DNA from: Gammaproteobacteria bacterium
Lineage (GTDB): Bacteria > Pseudomonadota > Gammaproteobacteria > SZUA-229
Assembly: GCA_029881795.1 (NCBI GenBank)
Contig: JAOULX010000001.1
Coordinates: 310,001 to 374,000 of the forward strand
Direction of reading: 5' to 3'
DNA: 64,000 bases
The notes beneath the pieces were generated by a model. The model made no database searches. It was not told the origin of the DNA and worked only from the letters and a program-made list of their open reading frames with translations. This document shows positions 4,759-60,945 of the stretch, in pieces (the first letter of the stretch is position 1; every line of letters starts with the position of its first letter). The position numbers and the translations under genes were made by a program.

Positions 4759-7308
4759 TTGGCTAACACATTGATAAAGAAATGGGTCTTTCCTTTTTAC
4801 CACAGTCTGCGTGGTAAATTTGTACTCGCTTCGGTTTTAGTGTGTTTTATCTTAATTAGCAGCAATATTGCAACGCAGTTTTATATTAATAAGTCCTCTT
4901 CAGAAGCTACATTGTTACTGGAACAACGGATCACCAAGCTGAATCATACCCGGATTATTATGGATAATGTCTGGGATGTAAGCTTTGTTCTGGAGGAGCA
5001 TTCGATCGCACCAACAAATTCTACGCATTCGCGTATATTTAATAAAATGGTAATGTCGGTTGACCGGTTACTGGCATTGATAGATTCTGAAGAAGCTAAT
5101 CAACCGATGGTTGATCAGCTTGAAATTGTTCTGGGTGATTTCAACCAACTCGGGATTTATATCAATTATCTGATGGATATCAGGTCAAATCCGTCCAAGC
5201 TCTATCCTGCGATTGAAATTTCGCGTTCTACAATGTACGAAAGTCAGTCGATATTTTCCCGCTTGGCGGGGCTCAGTATTGATGAAACGATAGCAGCAAT
5301 AAAAGGCTCCGACACCGAGGCTCTGACTCTGCTTCTGGATCTAAGGTATAAATGGGTGCAGATGATATCTTTGTATCGGATGTATCTTGTTAACCGGTTG
5401 GCATTACTCGATAGTGAGGCATTAGATAATCAGGTCGAAAATATAAATCTGTTCTGGATTAATTTAAATACTATTTTTAAAGCGCTGAATAAGTTAAAGG
5501 AAAATAATCGGCTGGAGTTTCAGACTGAAGAGGCTCTGCCGGAAATGATAAAGGCTGCGAACAGCTGGAACCAGAGTTTTAAGAATATCGTGTCAACAGA
5601 AGCACCAGAGGAATGGCGCTCAGATTACTCCATTATAAAAATGAAAGTTGCCCCGTTGATGAAATCAATCTGGGATAATATCAGAGATTACGACAGAGAT
5701 ATCGAGGCGGATGTAAAGAAAAGTGTGCTTGATTTATCGCAGGTTGCCGGTAATACAAGCCTGATATTATGGGGGCTTACAATTGCCGGTATGCTGGTGC
5801 TGGTCGCGTTGTTTTATTTTCTGCACAACACCGTTTTGAATCCGATCAAACAGATATCAGAAGCAATGAGACAGGAAGCTGAGGATGGCAGTCTGTTAAA
5901 ACCACTGCTGATCAAAGGAAAATCATTAGAAACGACGAACTTGATTGATGCCTTTTCTATGATGCAACTACAGGTGCACAGCCGTAAAAATGATCTTGAA
6001 TATCAGACCTTGCATGATGATCTGACAAGGCTACCAAATCGCTTGCTGTTGTTTGATCGTCTGGAACAAAATATCTCTAAGTTAAAAAGGGATAAAGGTT
6101 CTCTTGCCTTAATTATGATGGACCTTGATCGCTTTAAAGAAATTAATGACACCCTCGGGCATCACGCTGGAGATGAGTTATTAAAACTGGTTAGCGACCG
6201 GCTGGTTGTCAGTCTGAGAGAGGTGGATACGGTTGCACGATTAGGTGGAGATGAGTTCGCTATTCTTATACCTGATTGTGATCTTGAAAAGTCAAAAATT
6301 GTTGCCGGTAAAATACGCGATTGTATGCGCCCGGCACTACAGGTGCATGAGCAATCGCTCTATGTGCATGGCAGTGTGGGTATTGCAATATACCCGGATC
6401 ATGGCACAAATGCCGAGACTTTGCTGAAAAATGCTGATATCGCTATGTATGCTTCAAAAAGAAATAACTCTAATTATGAGATATATGTATACGAGCAGGA
6501 ATTACACAGTATTAAAAAACTTGAATTAAAATATAAACTGCAAAAAGCGATACTAAATAACGAGATGCGGCTTTATTTTCAGCCACAGATAAGTTGTGAG
6601 CTGAATAAGCTTGTCGGTGTTGAGGCCTTGCTGAGATGGCATATTCAGGATGACTTAAATATTTCGCCGGATGTATTTATCCCCCTGGCGGAAGAATCAG
6701 GCCTGATAAAAAGTCTGACAGAGTGGGTTATTTTTGAGGCGATGAAACAAAAACAGGGCTGGATGCGGCAACTTGAGAATGTACCGGTCAGTATAAATCT
6801 GTCAGCATGGAATGTGTCTGACCCCGAGCTGCACGGGTATGTGCTGGAATGCTTCACGAAGTATGAGTTATCAACGGACGACATTGTTTTTGAAATTACT
6901 GAAAGTGCAATGATGAAGGATACTAATCAGGCGCTGAAAATAATGCAGGACTTGAATGACAGCGGGTTTGATCTGATCGTTGATGATTATGGTACCGGCT
7001 TTTCATCACTGGCATACCTGAAAAAATTTCCTGTAAAAGAACTAAAGATAGATAAGTCCTTTGTTATGAACATGATCGAAAATGAAAATGATGCAGTGAT
7101 TGTTAAATCAACGATAGATTTGGCACACAATCTGGGGCTTGGTGTAATTGCAGAAGGCGTAGAGAAAAAAGAAGTATTTGATATGCTGAAAGAGCTGGAC
7201 TGCGACAAAGTTCAGGGGTTTTTAATTGCTAGGCCAATGCCGCTGGAAGAATTTATGACCTGGTTTGCCAGTTATCAGCCAAGTATCAATCCGGAGCTGG
7301 TGAGTTAG
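4759..7308 (+). CDS. Membrane-bound GGDEF-EAL c-di-GMP enzyme with HAMP-like linker
   Basis: An 849-aa signalling protein. It has one membrane segment at about residues 18-40, a ~290-residue periplasmic sensor region of helical character, a second segment at about 335-358, a HAMP-like linker, then GGDEF and EAL domains. The cyclase motif is intact (LGGDEF, GGDEF at 496-500), with an inhibitory RxxD site at 487-490. The phosphodiesterase motifs also look intact: EAL at 622-624, then INLSAWN, FEITES, VDDYGTG, ELKIDKSF and AEGVE. It could therefore both make and degrade c-di-GMP. The sensor ligand is unknown. The start appears to be TTG (4759, or 4771), with no strong ribosome-binding site. Its stop overlaps the stop of the convergent MazG-like gene. 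Confidence 0.9.
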   Translation: MANTLIKKWVFPFYHSLRGKFVLASVLVCFILISSNIATQFYINKSSSEATLLLEQRITKLNHTRIIMDNVWDVSFVLEEHSIAPTNSTHSRIFNKMVMSVDRLLALIDSEEANQPMVDQLEIVLGDFNQLGIYINYLMDIRSNPSKLYPAIEISRSTMYESQSIFSRLAGLSIDETIAAIKGSDTEALTLLLDLRYKWVQMISLYRMYLVNRLALLDSEALDNQVENINLFWINLNTIFKALNKLKENNRLEFQTEEALPEMIKAANSWNQSFKNIVSTEAPEEWRSDYSIIKMKVAPLMKSIWDNIRDYDRDIEADVKKSVLDLSQVAGNTSLILWGLTIAGMLVLVALFYFLHNTVLNPIKQISEAMRQEAEDGSLLKPLLIKGKSLETTNLIDAFSMMQLQVHSRKNDLEYQTLHDDLTRLPNRLLLFDRLEQNISKLKRDKGSLALIMMDLDRFKEINDTLGHHAGDELLKLVSDRLVVSLREVDTVARLGGDEFAILIPDCDLEKSKIVAGKIRDCMRPALQVHEQSLYVHGSVGIAIYPDHGTNAETLLKNADIAMYASKRNNSNYEIYVYEQELHSIKKLELKYKLQKAILNNEMRLYFQPQISCELNKLVGVEALLRWHIQDDLNISPDVFIPLAEESGLIKSLTEWVIFEAMKQKQGWMRQLENVPVSINLSAWNVSDPELHGYVLECFTKYELSTDDIVFEITESAMMKDTNQALKIMQDLNDSGFDLIVDDYGTGFSSLAYLKKFPVKELKIDKSFVMNMIENENDAVIVKSTIDLAHNLGLGVIAEGVEKKEVFDMLKELDCDKVQGFLIARPMPLEEFMTWFASYQPSINPELVS

Positions 7309-38369: not shown

Positions 38370-39149
38370 TCATTTTGATTGGGCTGTTTTTGTTACGTGT
38401 TGTTCATCTAATAATTCCGGCATACCCTCAGACATGATAGGTTTTAGTGTTGTCAGCAGGGTTTTAAACAGGGTTTTATTGCCCTGTTCTTCATTATGTA
38501 ATAATTGTTTCATGTGTTCGCGCTGGGTTGGCATACTAAAACAGGCCGGGCAGCTGTCAGCTATTACGGGTAACTGGTGTTCATTTACAAAGTCCCGGCT
38601 CTGGCGTTCCCGCATATATACCAGTGGTCTGATAATACGTAAATCACCGTCGTCATTGGTGTAATGCGCTTTCATTGTTTTGATTTTACCTAAATGGAAT
38701 GCCGCCATTAAGAAGCTTTCGGCAAGATCATCAAGATGCTGTGCCAGTGCCAGAACATTGTAGTGATGTTTTCTTGCGGTGCTGTACATGATGCCGCGTT
38801 TAATGCGTGAACAAAAAGCACAGTATGACGGTTTGCCCATGTGCTCTTTAGCCATTTCCATAATTGGCTCTTGCATATAATGATATTCAAGTCCCAGTGA
38901 TTCTATATAAGGAATCATCGGTGAGGGATCGAAGTCACCGGCTTGCGGGTCAACGGTCATCACGCCTAATTCAAAATGAATAGGAGCGTGTCGCTGGAAA
39001 TGATGCAATACATGCAGCAATGTTAACGAATCTTTTCCGCCTGATAAACCAAGCAAGATGCGGTCACCATCGCGAATCATTTGAAAATGACTAATGGCCT
39101 GACCGGCCTGTCGTAAAATTGATTTTGGTGGAGGGATAAATTGACTCAT
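38370..39149 (-). CDS. TtcA-family tRNA thiolation/ATP-pyrophosphatase protein
   Basis: A 259-aa PP-loop ATP pyrophosphatase. The PP-loop is LGLSGGKDS (residues 36-41 for SGGKDS). The Fe-S/thiolation cysteines are Cys110 and Cys113 (YCAFCSRIKRG), with a second pair Cys200/Cys203 (CPACF). This is the TtcA group, which makes 2-thiocytidine-32 in tRNA. The second motif is CPACF rather than the CNLCG that I recall for canonical TtcA, and the protein is shorter than most, so it may be a TtcA paralogue with another substrate. The start codon is 45 bp downstream of the sRNA terminator. Confidence 0.78.
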   Translation of the reverse strand: MSQFIPPPKSILRQAGQAISHFQMIRDGDRILLGLSGGKDSLTLLHVLHHFQRHAPIHFELGVMTVDPQAGDFDPSPMIPYIESLGLEYHYMQEPIMEMAKEHMGKPSYCAFCSRIKRGIMYSTARKHHYNVLALAQHLDDLAESFLMAAFHLGKIKTMKAHYTNDDGDLRIIRPLVYMRERQSRDFVNEHQLPVIADSCPACFSMPTQREHMKQLLHNEEQGNKTLFKTLLTTLKPIMSEGMPELLDEQHVTKTAQSK

Positions 39150-39193: not shown

Positions 39194-39372
39194 AATAAAA
39201 AAGCCTCCGGCGTTTCCATGCCGGAGGCTTTTCTAATAAACCACAAGTTCCTGATAAAAAAGGAAATTCCAGCCTATCCTTGGCTGGAATTTTTGGCTTC
39301 CCTGACAGGAGGTTTGTCAGTCTAATTGAAGAATTGGGGTATCTTCAAACAACATCCTTGTAATAAGACAAT
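39194..39372 (-). ncRNA. Candidate Csr/Rsm-family regulatory RNA (second of two)
   Basis: On the minus strand a TATAAT box at 39383-39378 predicts a start near 39372, and a strong hairpin with a T-run ends the transcript near 39194 (about 179 nt). The RNA contains several GGA motifs: CAAGGAT, CAGGGAA, AAGGATA in the loop of a TCCAGCC/GGCTGGA hairpin, CAGGAAC, and ATGGAAA in the loop of the terminator. GGA in hairpin loops is the binding signature of CsrA/RsmA. A GacA-type box lies at 39449-39466. The internal TCCAGCC hairpin is itself followed by a pyrimidine run and might cause early termination. Confidence 0.62.
39196..39232 (-). terminator. Rho-independent terminator, minus strand
   Basis: The 13-bp stem AAAAGCCTCCGGC / GCCGGAGGCTTTT has an eight-base loop. 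Read on the minus strand it ends in TTTTTTATT and exposes ATGGAAAC in the loop. Confidence 0.88.
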
Positions 39373-39448
39373 TACAGATTATACAGAGTGTCAAAAGGAT
39401 ATCTGTCAGTTAATTCGTAAAGTTCTGGAGTCTATTTTCTAGGCTGAG

Positions 39449-39507: not shown

Positions 39508-39706
39508 AATAAAAAACCCGGTCATTCCATGACCGGGTTTCGCCATCCTAGCAGACTTGGTGATTAGCCTCGCGCAATTATTTCATCCTGTATATCCACT
39601 CGTTCCCTTGAGAGTCTCTGACTATCCTTTGATTCCCTTTCCCTGAGACTCCGCTACTTCCTGGTACAAATGAGCTTCCTTGCAGACCTCGTTCTCCCTA
39701 GGTCTG
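39508..39706 (-). ncRNA. Candidate CsrB/RsmZ-type regulatory RNA (first of two)
   Basis: Read on the minus strand, 39706 to 39508 is a ~199-nt transcript with twelve GGA motifs, most as AGGA, AGGGA or AAGGA. The GGA trinucleotides map to plus-strand TCC at 39526, 39546, 39586, 39595, 39604, 39625, 39634, 39640, 39650, 39659, 39677 and 39695. The 5' end folds as CAGACCT / AGGTCTG with AGGGA in the loop; a second hairpin has GAGTCTC/GAGACTC arms enclosing three GGAs. The 3' end is a terminator with GGA in a three-base loop. No open frame with coding character is present. This is the design of CsrB/RsmZ, which titrate CsrA/RsmA. A CATAAT box at 39717-39712 and a GacA-like box at 39784-39801 lie upstream. 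Confidence 0.8.
39510..39540 (-). terminator. Rho-independent terminator, minus strand
   Basis: A perfect 12-bp stem AAACCCGGTCAT / ATGACCGGGTTT has the loop GGA on the minus strand and is followed by TTTTTTATT in that direction. Confidence 0.93.
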
Positions 39707-39783
39707 AGGATATTATGCCTATTATGTTTTTGCGGTTCTATACGGAGATTCGGAATATGCTGTAGGAAGAACACCTTACGTGA

Positions 39784-39801
39784 TGTAGGAATTTTCTTAC
39801 A
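39784..39801 (-). promoter_or_regulatory. GacA-like upstream activating box, RNA 1
   Basis: TGTAGG-N6-CTTACA differs at one position from the GacA box TGTAAG-N6-CTTACA. Its edge is 67 bp from the CATAAT box of the first RNA. A second, weaker copy with an eight-base spacer (TGTAGG...CTTACG) lies at 39761-39780. Confidence 0.62.
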
Positions 39802-39904: not shown

Positions 39905-40858
39905 ATGCGTCATTATTTATACCCGAAACTGCATGCCTATCGTTCGCAGTTCTTACAAGTGGATGAAGTGCACCGACTTTATATTGAGGAGTCGGGTAAC
40001 CCGCAGGGGATTCCGGTTGTCTTTCTGCATGGCGGGCCGGGTGCAAGTTGTCAGCCAGTTCACCGGCGTTATTTTGATCCGAAAAAATACAGAATCATTC
40101 TATTTGATCAGAGAGGTTGTGGGCAGTCGCTACCCCATGCCAGTTTGCAACAAAATACCAGCCAGGATCTGGTGCAGGATATGGAGCGTATCAGAGCGGC
40201 ACTGGAAGTTGATAAATGGGTCGTGTTTGGCGGCTCATGGGGTTCTACGCTGGGTCTGTTATATGCGCAGGCACATCCTACCCATGTCTTGGGGTTGGTG
40301 TTAAGGGGAATCTTTTTATGTCGCGATGAGGATGTCAGCTGGTTTTATCAGCAGGGTACCAGTGCCTTGTTTCCTGAATACTGGCAAGACTTTATCGCAC
40401 CCATTGCCGAAGCGGAACGCGCTGATATGGTCGGGGCTTATTACCGGCGGCTGACAGGGGATGATGACGTGGCTAAAATGCGTGCAGCCGAAGCTTGGTC
40501 GGTGTGGGAAGGGCGCACCGCAAGTTTGCAAGTTAATGAGGAGCTGGTGGATTATTTTTCTGACCCTTATGTGGCGTTGAGTGTGGCTCGTATAGAGTCG
40601 CATTATTTCGTTAATCAGAGTTTTTTACAGCCTAATCAGATTCTTAATGCTGCGCATAAGCTAAAAGATATTCCCGGTTATATTGTGCACGGGCGTTATG
40701 ATGTGATTTGCCCGGCGCAGCAAGCCTGGGCATTGCATCAGGCCTGGCCAGAGTCTGAGCTGCATATGATTGCGGATGCCGGCCACGCGGTGAGCGAGCC
40801 TGGGATTACCCAAAAGCTGGTCGAAATTACGGATCAGTTGGCGGAACGCTTGTCTTGA
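39905..40858 (+). CDS. pip: Proline iminopeptidase
   Basis: An alpha/beta-hydrolase of 317 aa that cleaves N-terminal proline from peptides. The oxyanion region HGGPGAS, the nucleophile elbow [10 protein letters not shown] (catalytic Ser), the Asp in GRYDVICP and the His in [10 protein letters not shown] are all present, as is the DQRGCGQS motif typical of this family. ATG 39905 has a GGGGG ribosome-binding site. Its stop overlaps the dtd start (TTGA), so the two are co-transcribed. Confidence 0.95.
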
Positions 40859-41301
40859 TCGCGTTAATTCAGAGAGTTAGTCAGGCCTCTGTGCTGGTTG
40901 AGAGCCGACAGATTGCCGCAATCGGTAGCGGTTTGCTGGTGTTGTTCGGGGTCGAAAAAGGAGATACCGAAAACGAAGTGGAGCGGTTGCTTGAAAAGCT
41001 ATTGAAATACCGCGTGTTCGCTGATACGGATCAAAAAATGAACCTGAGTTTGCTGGATACGGCGGGGGAATTACTGATGGTGCCGCAATTTACGCTGGCA
41101 GCCGATACGGCAAAAGGCCTGCGTCCGAGTTTTTCATCGGCAGCGGACCCGACAGAAGGGCGACGATTGTTTGAGCTGGCTGTAAAGCGGGCTAAAAAAT
41201 CGGTGAAAACAGTCCAAAGCGGACAGTTTGGCGCAGATATGCAGGTCTCGCTGATAAATGACGGGCCAGTGACATTTTGGTTGCAAGTCAGCGCCGTCTG
41301 A
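40855..41301 (+). CDS. dtd: D-aminoacyl-tRNA deacylase
   Basis: Dtd hydrolyses D-aminoacyl-tRNAs (and Gly-tRNA-Ala), protecting translation. The 148-aa protein has the IQRVSQASV start, the SQ-containing motif region [16 protein letters not shown], and the C-terminal NDGPVTFWL with the Gly-cis-Pro-like GPVT motif. The start is TTG at 40855, overlapping the pip stop by 4 bp. A small CGCCGTC/GACGGCG hairpin at 41292-41309 covers its stop codon. Confidence 0.96.
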
Positions 41302-46735: not shown

Positions 46736-47869
46736 ATGAATACGGAAATTGATAGACTAAAGGCTGAAAATAAAAACCTCCAGCATCAGATGAATAATTT
46801 GATGCGCAATGCCCGCCTTAACGAAGAAAAACTGCAGCGATTTTCTGAAATGGAGCTGCTGTTAATCAGTACGCACTCACTGCGTGATTTACTGCAAATT
46901 GTTATTAATAACTACCGTAATGCATTTGACCTTAATGCGGTTACGCTGATCCTGATTGATCCCGAATATGAATTGCTACGATTTCTTGATGAAACGGGAT
47001 TACAGGCCGATCAGTTACCAGAGTTAAAACTGGTGGCCGATCCGGCTGATGTCGAAAAATGGTTTGATCTGCAACTTTCACCACGATTAATGGCCTATCA
47101 GCAAGAGCATCAAGTACTGTTTGCCGGTTCACAGGCGGTATTACAGTCAGTCGCGCTTATACCGCTGATTCGTCAAGGCAAGCTGATCGGAAGTCTTAAT
47201 CTGGGTAGCAACCGGCATGAACGGTTCCAGCAGTCTAATAGTACCGATTTTTTACAGCGGCTGGCTGCAATCGTATCGATTTGTATCGAAAATGCGCTCA
47301 ATGTTACTAAACTTGAGCGCATTGGCATGACTGATCCGTTAACGGCTGTGTATAACCGTCGATTCTTTGAGCGACGACTGATCGAAGTGGTTTCGAGTTC
47401 GGTGCGCTATAGCTATGAACTCAGTTGTATGTTTCTCGATGTTGATCACTTTAAACGGGTTAATGATAATCTCGGGCATCAGGTCGGCGATCTGGTGTTG
47501 CGAGAAGTGGCTGCTATTATCGATCAGCATCTGCGTGGCAGTGATATGGTGGCGCGTTATGGGGGTGAAGAGTTTGTTGTGTTATTGCCTCAAACCCCGG
47601 CTAATGATGCGCGGATGGTAGCTGAGCGCATAAGAGAAAGTTTGGCCATGCACCAGTTTAATCTGGCTGAAGGAAAAACATTACAGGTCAATATCTCAAT
47701 CGGTGTTGCTGGTATGGAATTAAGCAAAATGGGTGGTGAGGTGATTGATTTGGGGCGAGAGCTGGTAAAAAGAGCTGATCTGGCTTTGCTTGAGGCCAAG
47801 AGTACCGGCCGTAATAAAGTGGTAATGGCTGAGGTATTTGTCGAAAAAACAGAGCTGGAAACCAGCTGA
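46736..47869 (+). CDS. Cytoplasmic diguanylate cyclase with DUF484/GAF-like sensor domain
   Basis: A 377-aa soluble signalling protein. Residues 1-40 form a coiled coil (DRLKAENKNLQHQM). Residues about 45-190 are a GAF-like domain resembling DUF484. The C-terminal GGDEF domain has an intact YGGEEF (276-280) and an RxxD inhibitory site at 267-270, exactly five residues before it, so it is probably an active, product-inhibited cyclase. No EAL domain is present. It lies after tatC with an 86-bp gap. Confidence 0.92.
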   Translation: MNTEIDRLKAENKNLQHQMNNLMRNARLNEEKLQRFSEMELLLISTHSLRDLLQIVINNYRNAFDLNAVTLILIDPEYELLRFLDETGLQADQLPELKLVADPADVEKWFDLQLSPRLMAYQQEHQVLFAGSQAVLQSVALIPLIRQGKLIGSLNLGSNRHERFQQSNSTDFLQRLAAIVSICIENALNVTKLERIGMTDPLTAVYNRRFFERRLIEVVSSSVRYSYELSCMFLDVDHFKRVNDNLGHQVGDLVLREVAAIIDQHLRGSDMVARYGGEEFVVLLPQTPANDARMVAERIRESLAMHQFNLAEGKTLQVNISIGVAGMELSKMGGEVIDLGRELVKRADLALLEAKSTGRNKVVMAEVFVEKTELETS

Positions 47870-48372: not shown

Positions 48373-50151
48373 ATGTCTATTAAAACGATAAAACACAGTT
48401 TACTGAGTCTGACACTAGCACTAACTGCTCTGCTGGGCGCGCAACAGGCATCTGCAGAAGCTACTTATCAAACACGGATTGTTGGTGGTACGGAGTCCAC
48501 TCAGGGCCAGTGGCCGTGGATGGTGTTGTTATCTTCTTCTAGTCATTCTAATGGGGCTAATCCACCACCACCTGCCTACCCAGGTGACCCTGCTGCCATA
48601 CCCGGCATTCCCCATTTTTTTTGCGGAGCCACGCTCATTTCAGAACAGTGGGTGCTCACAGCAGCGCACTGTGTGGTGAATGATTCTGCCGCCGATGTTT
48701 TTGCTTTTGTTGGTTTACACGACAAAAATGATACCAGTATTGCAGCCACTGGGATAAGTCAGATTATTGTGCACCCGGATTATGATGATCTTACATCAGA
48801 TAATGATATCGCTTTATTAAAGCTGGCAACGCCGGCAACTGGTGCGGCAACCGTATCGTTTATTGATTCAAGTACGGCTACACTGCTAAACCCCGGTAAT
48901 AATGTCAATGTGGTTGGCTGGGGTGGCGTGGTTGCGCAACCCGCAAGCACAAGCTCTAGTCTGCCTTCGCTGTCACAAAGTTACCCCGACATTCTGCGTG
49001 ATGTCAGCATGCCTTATATTTCAAATACCGATTGTAATGCCGTGATGAATGGCCGTGTCACCGATAACATGATGTGTGCCGGCGTACCACAGGGTGGTGT
49101 CGATTCCTGTCAGGGCGATAGTGGTGGGCCTTTGGTGTTTTCAAATGATAACGGTGCCAGCTGGATTCAGGCCGGTATCGTCAGCTGGGGATACGGATGT
49201 GCCGATGCCAGTGCATACGGTGTTTATACCCGGGTGCAGAGCTATAGCGACTGGGTTACACGAGCGATCAACGGGGTAACACCAAGTATACGTTTTGGTA
49301 GCTGGATTCCCGGCAAGGTCGCTACAGCTCAAATAAATATTGAAAACAGCTCCGGTGTTGATTTTGACTTTACTTCCACGATTAGCAGCAATAATGCTGC
49401 TTTCATTGTGAGCGATAATTGCCAAACAACTTTAATTGCCGGTCAGTCTTGTTCGGTTGATCTTACTTTTTCAGCTTCTGTTGAAGGTGTTTATAACGGT
49501 CTCGTTTCTTATACGACAAATTCACCGGTTCTGTCAGTTGTTGGCGTGGATGTTGTAGCAACGCTTACTTCAGAGGTTAGCTTTAATCTGGTTGAAGCGG
49601 ATAATTCGATACAATGGGCTTTAGGAGGGGATAATAGCTGGACTGAGCAGCAAGTAACGACGGATGGTAGGTATTCATTCCAGTCCGGCACGATTACCCA
49701 TAATCAGAACAGTAGTTTGTTGGCTTATGTGAACGTGGCGGGTACTGCCAGAGATGTTTATTTTGACTGGAAAGCTTGTTCTGAAGCTACCTATGACTTC
49801 CTGGAATTATGGGTTGATAATAAAAAAATCGATGCTCGTTCAGGGAATGCCGTTTGGGCTCGTAAAATGGTGACATTAGCAGGGGCTGGTGACCATGTGA
49901 TTGAGTGGCGCTATAACAAAGACTACGTCGCGGACTATGGTGCCGATGCTGGCTGGGTCACTAATATAACACTGGATGCTGCTTCTGCTAACCCGTTGCC
50001 GCAACACAGTACCAGCTGCGCGCCGGTTGCTACGCCAGAACCAACAGCGCCGGTTTCATCAGGCGGTGGCGGTGCGGCTATATCAGCTTGGGCCTATCTG
50101 GTGTTTGCGATGCCGTTATTGATGCGTCGTCGTTTTAACAGGGCGTCTTAA
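48373..50151 (+). CDS. Secreted trypsin-like serine protease with GlyGly-CTERM tail
   Basis: A 592-aa exported S1 protease. The signal peptide (residues 1-28, ending ASAEA) is followed by the activation-type N-terminus RIVGGTES. The triad is His99 (TAAHC), Asp145 (DNDIALLKL) and Ser250 (GDSGGP); Asp244 sits six residues before the Ser, giving trypsin-like specificity. Residues about 300-390 and 400-540 look like two beta-sandwich domains. The end is GGGG (564-567), a hydrophobic segment, then RRRFNRAS. This is the GlyGly-CTERM signal processed by rhombosortase, used by type II-secreted proteins that are anchored on the cell surface. The start has a GGGAAAG site. Confidence 0.93.
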   Translation: MSIKTIKHSLLSLTLALTALLGAQQASAEATYQTRIVGGTESTQGQWPWMVLLSSSSHSNGANPPPPAYPGDPAAIPGIPHFFCGATLISEQWVLTAAHCVVNDSAADVFAFVGLHDKNDTSIAATGISQIIVHPDYDDLTSDNDIALLKLATPATGAATVSFIDSSTATLLNPGNNVNVVGWGGVVAQPASTSSSLPSLSQSYPDILRDVSMPYISNTDCNAVMNGRVTDNMMCAGVPQGGVDSCQGDSGGPLVFSNDNGASWIQAGIVSWGYGCADASAYGVYTRVQSYSDWVTRAINGVTPSIRFGSWIPGKVATAQINIENSSGVDFDFTSTISSNNAAFIVSDNCQTTLIAGQSCSVDLTFSASVEGVYNGLVSYTTNSPVLSVVGVDVVATLTSEVSFNLVEADNSIQWALGGDNSWTEQQVTTDGRYSFQSGTITHNQNSSLLAYVNVAGTARDVYFDWKACSEATYDFLELWVDNKKIDARSGNAVWARKMVTLAGAGDHVIEWRYNKDYVADYGADAGWVTNITLDAASANPLPQHSTSCAPVATPEPTAPVSSGGGGAAISAWAYLVFAMPLLMRRRFNRAS

Positions 50152-58845: not shown

Positions 58846-58887
58846 TAAATAGCCGCAGTGTAGAAATGAGAGTGAGGAATAGTGGTT

Positions 58888-60945
58888 ATGGCAGCAGGAA
58901 CAGGAACAGCTTCAGGGCTAAGTAAATTAGAATTAGGGTTGCTAGGGGTCGTTATTGGTACACTTCTGGCTGCCTTTGCTTTGTTCTTCTGGGCCAGTAG
59001 TGAGAGAGCAGATATTCAGAAACATCTGGAGATTGTTGCTAACGAGTCCTTAACATCACAACGGCTTTCAACGCAGGCACTTGAAGCGGCAGCAGGTAAA
59101 GCCGGATCATTTAAACAACTCGAAACATTGCGTAATGCTTATATCAAGACCATTAATCAGTTTAAAAAGGGTGATCCTGTAAAGGGTGTGGTACCGCTGC
59201 CTTCCGGTGTCAGTGCAGACTTTAAATCGATGGAAAAAATCTGGACCAGTTATCAGTCCGATATCAACATGATTCTTGAAGGTCTGGAACCTATATCTAA
59301 GGTTTCCGAATACGTTGTCGTTATCAATGAATTTATTCCACAGCTGCTGGCTTTTTCTGATGAAGTGGTCGGCATTCTGGTCAGAAAAAAAGCCGACCCT
59401 CAGCAAATATATATTGCCAGTCGTCAGTTGATGCTGACTCAGCGTATTGAAAATAATCTTAATCTGGTACTGGCTGGTGGTGAAGGTGCGACCACAGCGG
59501 CTGACCGTTTTGGTCGTGATGCGACCCTTTTTGGTAGTGTACTTGAAGGGATGCTTAAAGGCTTCCCCGGTCTCAATATTCAACGCGTTAAAGATGGCGA
59601 GGTTCGTGCCAAGTTGCGTGAAGTGGCAATGTTGTTTACCTCGGTGAGTGATCACGTTGATGCGATTCTGGAATTATCGCCGGTGTTGTTTGAAGTTAAA
59701 GATGCGGCCAGCAGGATGGAAGTAACAGCGGCTGCGCTGTTAACGGCGACGCAAAAACTTGAGCTGAGTATTCAGACAGAAGCTGGGCAGCTTGAATATA
59801 TCGATTTCGCGGTAATCTTCTTTGGTGTCGTGGCATTGTTAGCCTTCCTGTATTTTGGCTGGATCAATGTATCGAATGCTAAGGAACGTGAAGAACTGGC
59901 GCTGGAACAGAATCGCCGAAATCAGCGCGCAATTTTACGATTACTTGATGAAATGGCTAACCTGGCAGAAGGTGATTTAACCGTGCATGCGACGGTAACA
60001 GAAGAAATAACAGGAGCCATTGCAGACTCGGTCAACTACGCGATTGACGCTTTACGATCACTGGTAACTACCATCAACCTGACCGCGGTGCAGGTGTCTT
60101 CATCAGCTGAAAAGACTCAGGCAACAGCCGGACGCCTAGCCGATGCATCATCACACCAGGCCAGAGAAATCGCATCCGCATCAGCGGCTATCGCTGATAT
60201 GAGTGAATCGATGGATAAGGTATCAGAAAACGCTTCGCAGTCAGCAGAAGTTGCGAGGAAGTCAGTTGATATCGCTCAGCATGGTGCAACGCTGGTACGT
60301 AATAGTATTGCCGGTATGGATAATATCCGCGAACAAATTCAGGAAACATCAAAACGAATTAAACGTCTGGGTGAGTCATCTCAGGAAATCGGAGATATCG
60401 TCGGGCTGATCACAGAGATCGCCGATCAGACCAATATTCTGGCACTGAACGCGGCAATCCAGGCTTCGACGGCTGGTGATGCCGGACGTGGTTTCGCGGT
60501 TGTTGCCGATGAGGTACAGCGACTTGCGGAACGTTCATCAAATGCAACAAAACAGATCGAGGCACTGGTAAAAACTATCCAGGCCGATACCAACGAAGCG
60601 GTTCACTCAATGGAGCAGAGTACATCCGGAGTGGTAAGCGGAGGTAAGATGGCCGAGGATGCGGGTGAGGCACTGACCCGGATCGAGGATGTATCTACCG
60701 AGCTGGCAACACTGATCCAGGCTATTTCGGATTCAGCAAATCAGCAAACCGTTGTTGCAACAGATGTATCGAATACGATGAACGTTATCCAGGAAATTAC
60801 CGTACAAACATCTGAAGGTTCTGAAGAGACCTCTAACTCGATCGGAAACCTGAGCGAGATGGCAAATGAGCTGCGTAAGTCGGTTGCCGGATTTAAACTG
60901 CCGGATTCAGGTGATCAGGTAGAAACAGTGATACTGAATAATTAA
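58888..60945 (+). CDS. pilJ: Methyl-accepting chemotaxis protein PilJ
   Basis: A 685-aa membrane chemoreceptor for the Chp system. One membrane helix is at about residues 11-32, then a ~270-aa periplasmic region with PilJ-type domains, and a second helix at about 305-325. A HAMP-like region follows, and then the cytoplasmic signalling domain, whose conserved tip is [15 protein letters not shown] and [21 protein letters not shown] 58888 is preferred because GAGGAA (58873-58878) is correctly spaced; a GTG at 58882 is the alternative. pilK is missing between pilJ and chpA. Confidence 0.94.

Follow-up and report, generated by a model that had tools for sequence, protein, structure and literature searches.

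A putative CsrA-sequestering small RNA of a gammaproteobacterium carries a segment complementary to the csrA mRNA leader

Results

The DNA analysed is a 64-kb stretch (64,000 nucleotides), referred to here as the window. It contains a predicted CsrB/RsmZ-like small RNA gene on the minus strand (39508..39706), whose predicted transcript of about 199 nt carries 12 GGA motifs. The gene is conserved in four of four genomes of the genus, and further members were found in the family with a covariance model. Its divergent neighbour is pip, encoding prolyl aminopeptidase (39905..40858, plus strand; TIGR01249, 423.3 bits against a cut-off of 259.75), followed by dtd, encoding D-aminoacyl-tRNA deacylase (40855..41301, plus strand; TIGR00256, 185.9 bits, cut-off 101.5), and these two genes served as synteny anchors. 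On the opposite side lies a ttcA-like gene (38370..39149, minus strand), whose best NCBIfam match is TtcA with 209.3 bits, below the cut-off of 272. Between the RNA gene and ttcA there is another candidate for a small RNA or a leader (39255-39375, minus strand), with hairpins whose loops are AUACCCCAA and AACCUCC, followed by a terminator; both loop motifs recur in two other members of the genus (L020 and L022).

A first-pass annotation of this DNA had described twelve GGA motifs within about 199 nt of the minus strand. The exact count for 39508-39706 is indeed 12, whereas the runner-up among 199-nt stretches of the window, both strands considered, has 8. The structural elements that it had reported can likewise be read in the sequence and are essentially reproduced by the predicted fold, all of them on the minus strand: a 5' hairpin formed by CAGACCT and AGGTCTG with AGGGA in the loop (39683..39706), a GAGTCTC/GAGACTC stem around three GGA motifs (39612..39651), and an intrinsic terminator with a 12-bp stem, a GGA loop and a T run (39511..39540). 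GGA motifs are predicted to be exposed in loops of each of the three. The fold as a whole is only modestly better than that of dinucleotide shuffles (z of -1.81, with 6 of 200 shuffles equally stable).

Comparison of the spacer among relatives, which the same annotation had proposed, showed conserved GGA positions, with structural covariation that is thin and confined to the terminator. In the alignment of the four genus members, 11 of the 12 GGA motifs occupy identical columns, the twelfth being displaced by one base in one genome, and GGA columns are less variable than the remaining columns of the RNA (Fisher p of 0.007). The RNA is 87-93% identical in the other three genomes, and invariant columns make up 77% of it as opposed to 45% of the promoter region and 21% of the distal upstream region, gapped columns being counted as variable. 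Within the genus a double change was seen in one of 48 predicted pairs, located in the terminator. Double changes in the terminator also occur in the family, and RNAalifold retained the terminator alone (6 pairs) among 30 family members. None of the four genus members differs in the 5' hairpin or the middle stem, and the 30 family sequences, those four included, gave no covariation for either one.

It could be argued that this element is not an independent RNA, being instead the leader of ttcA or a small coding gene, and to this we give a negligible probability. A 50-codon ORF on the minus strand (39622-39774) does overlap the gene; however, it begins upstream of the predicted start of the RNA, the indels found within the genus are not multiples of three, and the genus comparison revealed no conserved ORF in the RNA. 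As for a leader, a terminator belonging to the RNA lies about 360 nt ahead of ttcA, with two more terminator-like hairpins in between, and several other genera have no close ttcA in the flanks examined and still carry the RNA by pip/dtd.

The search with Rfam models that had been suggested at first pass was negative for the Csr/Rsm families. At the gathering threshold no Csr/Rsm match was obtained across the window, and the 14 loci of relatives gave only a tRNA; at E<=10 around the gene, the CsrB, RsmY and PrrB/RsmZ families were absent. The 22 low-score matches at E<=10 belonged to other families, many of them lying over terminator hairpins, and were rejected. This negative result fits an RNA family that is absent from Rfam.

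A predicted -10 box, CATAAT (39712..39717, minus strand), is conserved in the genus, and a CATAAT or CATACT was chosen as the -10 box in 30 of 30 family members, in two of them after manual correction. Further upstream lies a GacA/UvrY-type box, TGTAAGAAAATTCCTACA (39784..39801, minus strand), with its centre some 87 nt before the predicted start; it shares with the other family RNAs the pattern [TC]GTA[AG][GC]-N6-C[CT]TAC[AG]. Such a box precedes all 30 inspected family RNAs, although it is absent from the covariance model with which they were found. Relative to starts inferred from the position of the -10 box, two after manual adjustment, its centre falls at -64/-65 in 16 RNAs and at -87/-88 in the other 14. 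The two positions are about two helical turns (~23 bp) apart with respect to the -10 box (L019-L022, L033-L058). An ATAG/ATGG motif near -35 was also noticed in most of these 30 RNAs.

In the organism's own genome the box pattern with at most one mismatch gave 13 matches, the same as its reversed control (13), and four more loci were found with the regular expression, none with a GGA-rich RNA on reading. Other boxes in this genome (G000:C19:201965, C19:250468 and C19:34445; L009, L010, L013; L217-L219) precede genes for a response regulator with an HD domain (HD_5), a methyl-accepting chemotaxis protein and a GGDEF-EAL protein, which hints that the regulator may have direct targets related to c-di-GMP.

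The covariance model, built from the four genus sequences, found matches at E<=1 in 34 of the 54 genomes of the family, and 30 RNAs were inspected (4 from the genus and 26 others, with G020, G021, G022 and G038 left out). With the start set from the promoter they contain 10-17 GGA motifs, and 28 of them adjoin pip and/or dtd, the exceptions within the flanks examined being L047 and L051. A search of the family at the DNA level returned the genus and a box-only match in G035, with no GGA-rich stretch downstream of it; in G035 the covariance model located the RNA elsewhere.

When the search was extended to the class with model R2, 59 of 369 genomes matched at E<=0.01, many of the listed matches barely exceeding the terminator. 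Of the 27 new loci, 22 were inspected and 10 judged real, one of them within the family. One locus, L082 (G415), is GGA-rich, with CsrB-like hairpins and a terminator, and lacks a strict GacA box. Independently of the model, dtd was detected in 277 of 377 genomes and the DNA upstream of 74 listed dtd places was surveyed, one per family, four stretches being shorter than intended. A strict box on the divergent strand was present in 6 of the 74 (L103, L124, L125, L146, L154 and L161), and four further stretches were picked by eye (L109, L117, L129 and L162).

Similar terminator-ended, GGA-containing stretches were thus found in 18 further families, at 19 loci (9 from R2 and 10 from the dtd survey), both the stretches and the RNA ends being judged by eye. 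A strict GacA-type box is present at 14 of the 19, and seven of the nine loci found with R2 adjoin pip and/or dtd, as the survey loci do by construction. It must be taken into account that the GGA counts in the 18 stretches with a testable csrA range from 3 to 16 (G137 has 3, G462 has 4, G254 and G087 have 5 each), so that some of them are doubtful as sponges.

The genome also encodes the expected partners of such an RNA. CsrA is present, with 117.4 bits in NCBIfam against a cut-off of 73, and its best match among solved structures is 1y00 (Carbon storage regulator); the gene preceding csrA reads as a putative aspartate kinase. A UvrY/SirA/GacA-like regulator scores 272.7 bits with its best family, just below the NCBIfam cut-off of 280. 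A BarA-like kinase of 921 residues contains sCache_4, HAMP, HisKA, HATPase, REC and Hpt domains, and its best family is BarA with 710.8 bits, clearly below the cut-off of 890. Taken with the conserved GGA motifs, the predicted promoter and GacA-type box, the terminator and the lack of a conserved ORF, these genes support the CsrB/RsmZ-like identity first put forward in the annotation, which is the best reading of 39508-39706 on the minus strand as judged from sequence. The annotation had also invoked c-di-GMP, pil-chp and protease genes in the neighbourhood. Such genes do occur in the window, at 4759-7308, 46736-47869, 48373-50151 and 58882-60945 (GGDEF-EAL, GGDEF, trypsin-like and PilJ-like chemotaxis proteins, respectively; the domain check covered these four ORFs and one TatC-like ORF), but the argument from context contributes nothing decisive.

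Besides the GacA box, two features are additions to what had been proposed, namely a conserved non-GGA segment and its complementarity to the csrA mRNA. The segment, UUGCGCGAGG-CU-AAUCACCAA, precedes the terminator, and both of its parts have exact complements in the leader of the genome's own csrA. Site 1, UUGCGCGAGG (39568..39577, minus strand), matches CCUCGCGCAA over 10 bp near position -59 of the csrA leader, in a predicted hairpin-loop region, and site 2, AAUCACCAA (39557..39565, minus strand), matches UUGGUGAUU over 9 bp near -31, the same site being present in other genera and families. Each of the two strings occurs once in the window, inside the RNA gene. Among the upstream regions of the 81 ORFs of the window, three share a 9-mer with the complement of the RNA, none within the two cores, and nine share an 8-mer with the complement of the 30-nt segment. 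Predicted accessibility is mixed and weighs somewhat against the pairing: by mean unpaired probability, site 2 is open in the RNA (0.88) and site 1 mostly paired (0.16), while in the csrA leader site 1 is mostly open (0.76) and site 2 half paired (0.56). In several other genomes site 2 of the leader is predicted to be largely paired (0.27 in G001, 0.27 in G036 and 0.32 in G339).

In other genomes the csrA leader complements the local version of the RNA, over 15 nt in G373 (AGGUGAUUGAAGUUC), 14 nt in G339 (AAGGUGAUUGAGUG), 13 nt in G036 (CCUAUGGUGAUUG), 12 nt in G388 (GGUGAUUGAAGC), G093 (GUGAUUGAGUGC) and G031 (GUGAUUAAGCUU, facing AAGCUUAAUCAC in the RNA), and 10 nt in G262 (AGGUGAUGUG). Covariation is also seen within a single genus, with ACAGUGCGA/UCGCACUGU in G040 as opposed to AUAGCGCGA/UCGCGCUAU in G044. 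Site 2 keeps its place, beginning 56-70 nt from the 3' end of the RNA and lying at -25 to -39 of csrA (-10 in G137), and the CGCGC-type site of csrA lies at -50 to -59. A CGCGCU-type motif, complementary to AGCGCGAG of the RNA, was observed in about 20 of 30 csrA leaders (L001, L164-L192), in a predicted hairpin loop in the few that were folded.

The significance of these matches was evaluated by permutation of partners. csrA could be tested for 18 of the 31 family RNAs (the 30 and G045), the remaining genomes having no csrA match (as G002, G003, G012, G023, G028, G053 and G035), and for 18 of the 19 genomes from other families, G343 having none; when several csrA-like matches existed the best one was used. 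From these 36 genomes, 26 representatives were taken, one per genus or family, and the longest complement between the RNA and csrA from -120 to +10 was determined. The sum over matched partners was 254, whereas permuting the partners gave 194.1 (sd 6.6), and none of 20,000 permutations reached the observed sum; the same permutation with duplex energy also gave 0 of 20,000. Taken alone, the eight family genera gave 2, the nine families found with the covariance model 4 and the nine families of the dtd survey 25 of 20,000. The families found with the covariance model were partly selected via the RNA segment; the csrA side was never a criterion of selection. In an alignment of site 2 from 15 taxa, Watson-Crick cells numbered 197 versus 156 (0 of 10,000) and extra pair types 25 versus 15.6 (8 of 10,000), figures that address the matching of the flanks and not the presence of the site, since the alignment is limited to taxa showing it. 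As a control, E. coli CsrB and csrA share a complement of 7 nt, which is at chance level. Their raw duplex energy, obtained with a longer RNA, is -63.6 and similar to the mean of matched partners (-1602/26), so energy alone cannot discriminate.

Such matches could also arise, with no contact between the RNAs, from a site for a DNA-binding protein that occurs in both the RNA gene and the promoter region of csrA, oppositely oriented in the two, and the GGTGATTGA core, common to many genomes, would suit it. We regard this explanation as very improbable. The excess is found in the complementary orientation, while same-strand controls are near chance, with 747 of 20,000 for the 26 representatives and 1868, 2021 and 4942 of 20,000 for the family genera, the families found with the covariance model and those of the dtd survey, respectively. 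Moreover, the position is fixed with respect to the 3' end of the RNA and the start of csrA, and the flanks vary between genomes yet match within each.

The complementarity, with its compensatory changes, holds over the representatives as a whole and not in every genome. A canonical complement, defined as at least 10 nt lying 56-70 nt from the 3' end of the RNA and at -10 to -39 of csrA, is present in 8 of the 18 genomes outside the family. Among the others, the complement is weak in G139 (a 7-nt run, with 16 of 22 positions paired) and in G087, out of place or short in G254 (11 nt at -113), G067 (9 nt at -48), G426 and G462 (8 nt each), and no csrA complement to the RNA segment was found in G115, G245, G178 and G157. 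Within the family, matches at the sites do not exceed chance in G005, G015, G016 and G045, and those of 7-9 nt in genera g2 and g10 are not individually significant. The motif AAUCACC is retained in genera whose csrA leader lacks GGUGAU, and thus another target is possible. Mimicry of an anti-Shine-Dalgarno sequence was a further candidate explanation for AUCACC(UCC), rejected on the ground that the bases following AUCACC vary.

An alternative is a plain CsrA sponge, acting by titration only, in which the non-GGA segment serves another purpose, such as folding, RNase protection or termination, and the complementarity to csrA is accidental or inherited. In its favour, the CsrB/RsmZ-type sequence features are present, 10 of the 18 genomes of other families have a weak canonical complement or none, and site 1 is predicted to be engaged in pairing inside the RNA itself. 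Nevertheless, permuted partners never attained the observed complementarity in 20,000 trials, three separately collected subsets agree and the flanks co-vary, and we therefore consider titration alone unlikely.

Discussion

Sponge RNAs of the Csr system are described as acting through protein titration. The data presented here argue, with good though incomplete confidence, for a predicted Gac-controlled CsrA sponge that would also base-pair with the csrA mRNA, probably repressing csrA. In the proposed mechanism, phosphorylated GacA would switch on the RNA, whose GGA repeats would bind CsrA dimers. The conserved segment may at the same time pair with the hairpin-loop region of the csrA leader and/or with the site a short way upstream of the Shine-Dalgarno sequence, which would probably reduce translation of csrA; the pool of free CsrA would then shrink both by titration and because less of it is made.

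Of these steps, the sign of the effect on csrA carries the greatest uncertainty, and repression is proposed because site 2 is close to the ribosome-binding site. The pairing could be real and its consequence reversed, with the csrA mRNA trapping the sponge or making it less stable, or with the sponge opening the leader and raising csrA translation, in a form of homeostasis. The location of site 1 within a predicted hairpin-loop region of the leader would be in agreement with such a role, as would the fact that in the leaders examined site 2 is mostly upstream of the Shine-Dalgarno sequence and not over it. On the other hand, site 2 lies mostly 25-39 nt from the start codon, where the 30S footprint can reach it, and its counterpart in G137 overlaps the region of ribosome binding. 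We see the reversed effect as a minority possibility, deserving more weight than titration alone, and repression of csrA as the probable outcome.

It is somewhat more probable than otherwise that this RNA represents a widespread, possibly ancestral, gammaproteobacterial Csr switch: a bifunctional, Gac-controlled sponge combining titration by GGA motifs with a built-in antisense arm against csrA, which would have been lost later in lineages such as E. coli. If true, the antisense arm would add a second layer to a much-studied post-transcriptional switch and would change its kinetic modelling. The pip/dtd locus, the GacA-type box and the local complementarity to the csrA leader also suggest a route to Csr RNAs of uncultured bacteria that are missed by Rfam.

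The RNA resembles CsrB and CsrC of E. coli and RsmX, RsmY and RsmZ of Pseudomonas in its many GGA motifs, the upstream 18-bp palindrome of the GacA/UvrY type, the intrinsic terminator and the lack of a conserved ORF. It differs from them in having no Rfam match, in its pip/dtd locus and in the segment complementary to csrA, the match of E. coli CsrB to csrA being of chance length. The UvrY palindrome is treated in the available portions of PMC4682653, which place the E. coli box within -222 to -142 (csrB) and -223 to -143 (csrC), in contrast to the box described here at about -65 or -88.

Sponging by CsrB and CsrC, the dual action of McaS and the in silico pairing of the Pf RNAs are dealt with in PMC7652899, PMC10729762, PMC11882849 and PMC12249760, and in the accessible parts of this open-access literature no pairing of a sponge with the csrA mRNA was found. 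In Pseudoalteromonas fuliginea, Pf1-Pf3 are GGA-rich Csr RNAs with imperfect mRNA pairing proposed in silico, and the RNA predicted to act against the csrA mRNA is a putative antisense RNA distinct from the Pf sponges (PMC11882849). Here the conserved pairing with csrA would be made by the sponge itself, and none is described for the Pf RNAs in the sections of that article available. The closest parallel in function is perhaps McaS of E. coli, which, as described in the available text of PMC10729762, regulates mRNAs, with csgD and flhD as targets, and sequesters CsrA by means of four GGA motifs. The RNA described here is likewise predicted to join mRNA pairing and CsrA sequestration in one molecule; unlike McaS, it has 12 GGA motifs, and its candidate target is the message of the very protein that it would sponge.
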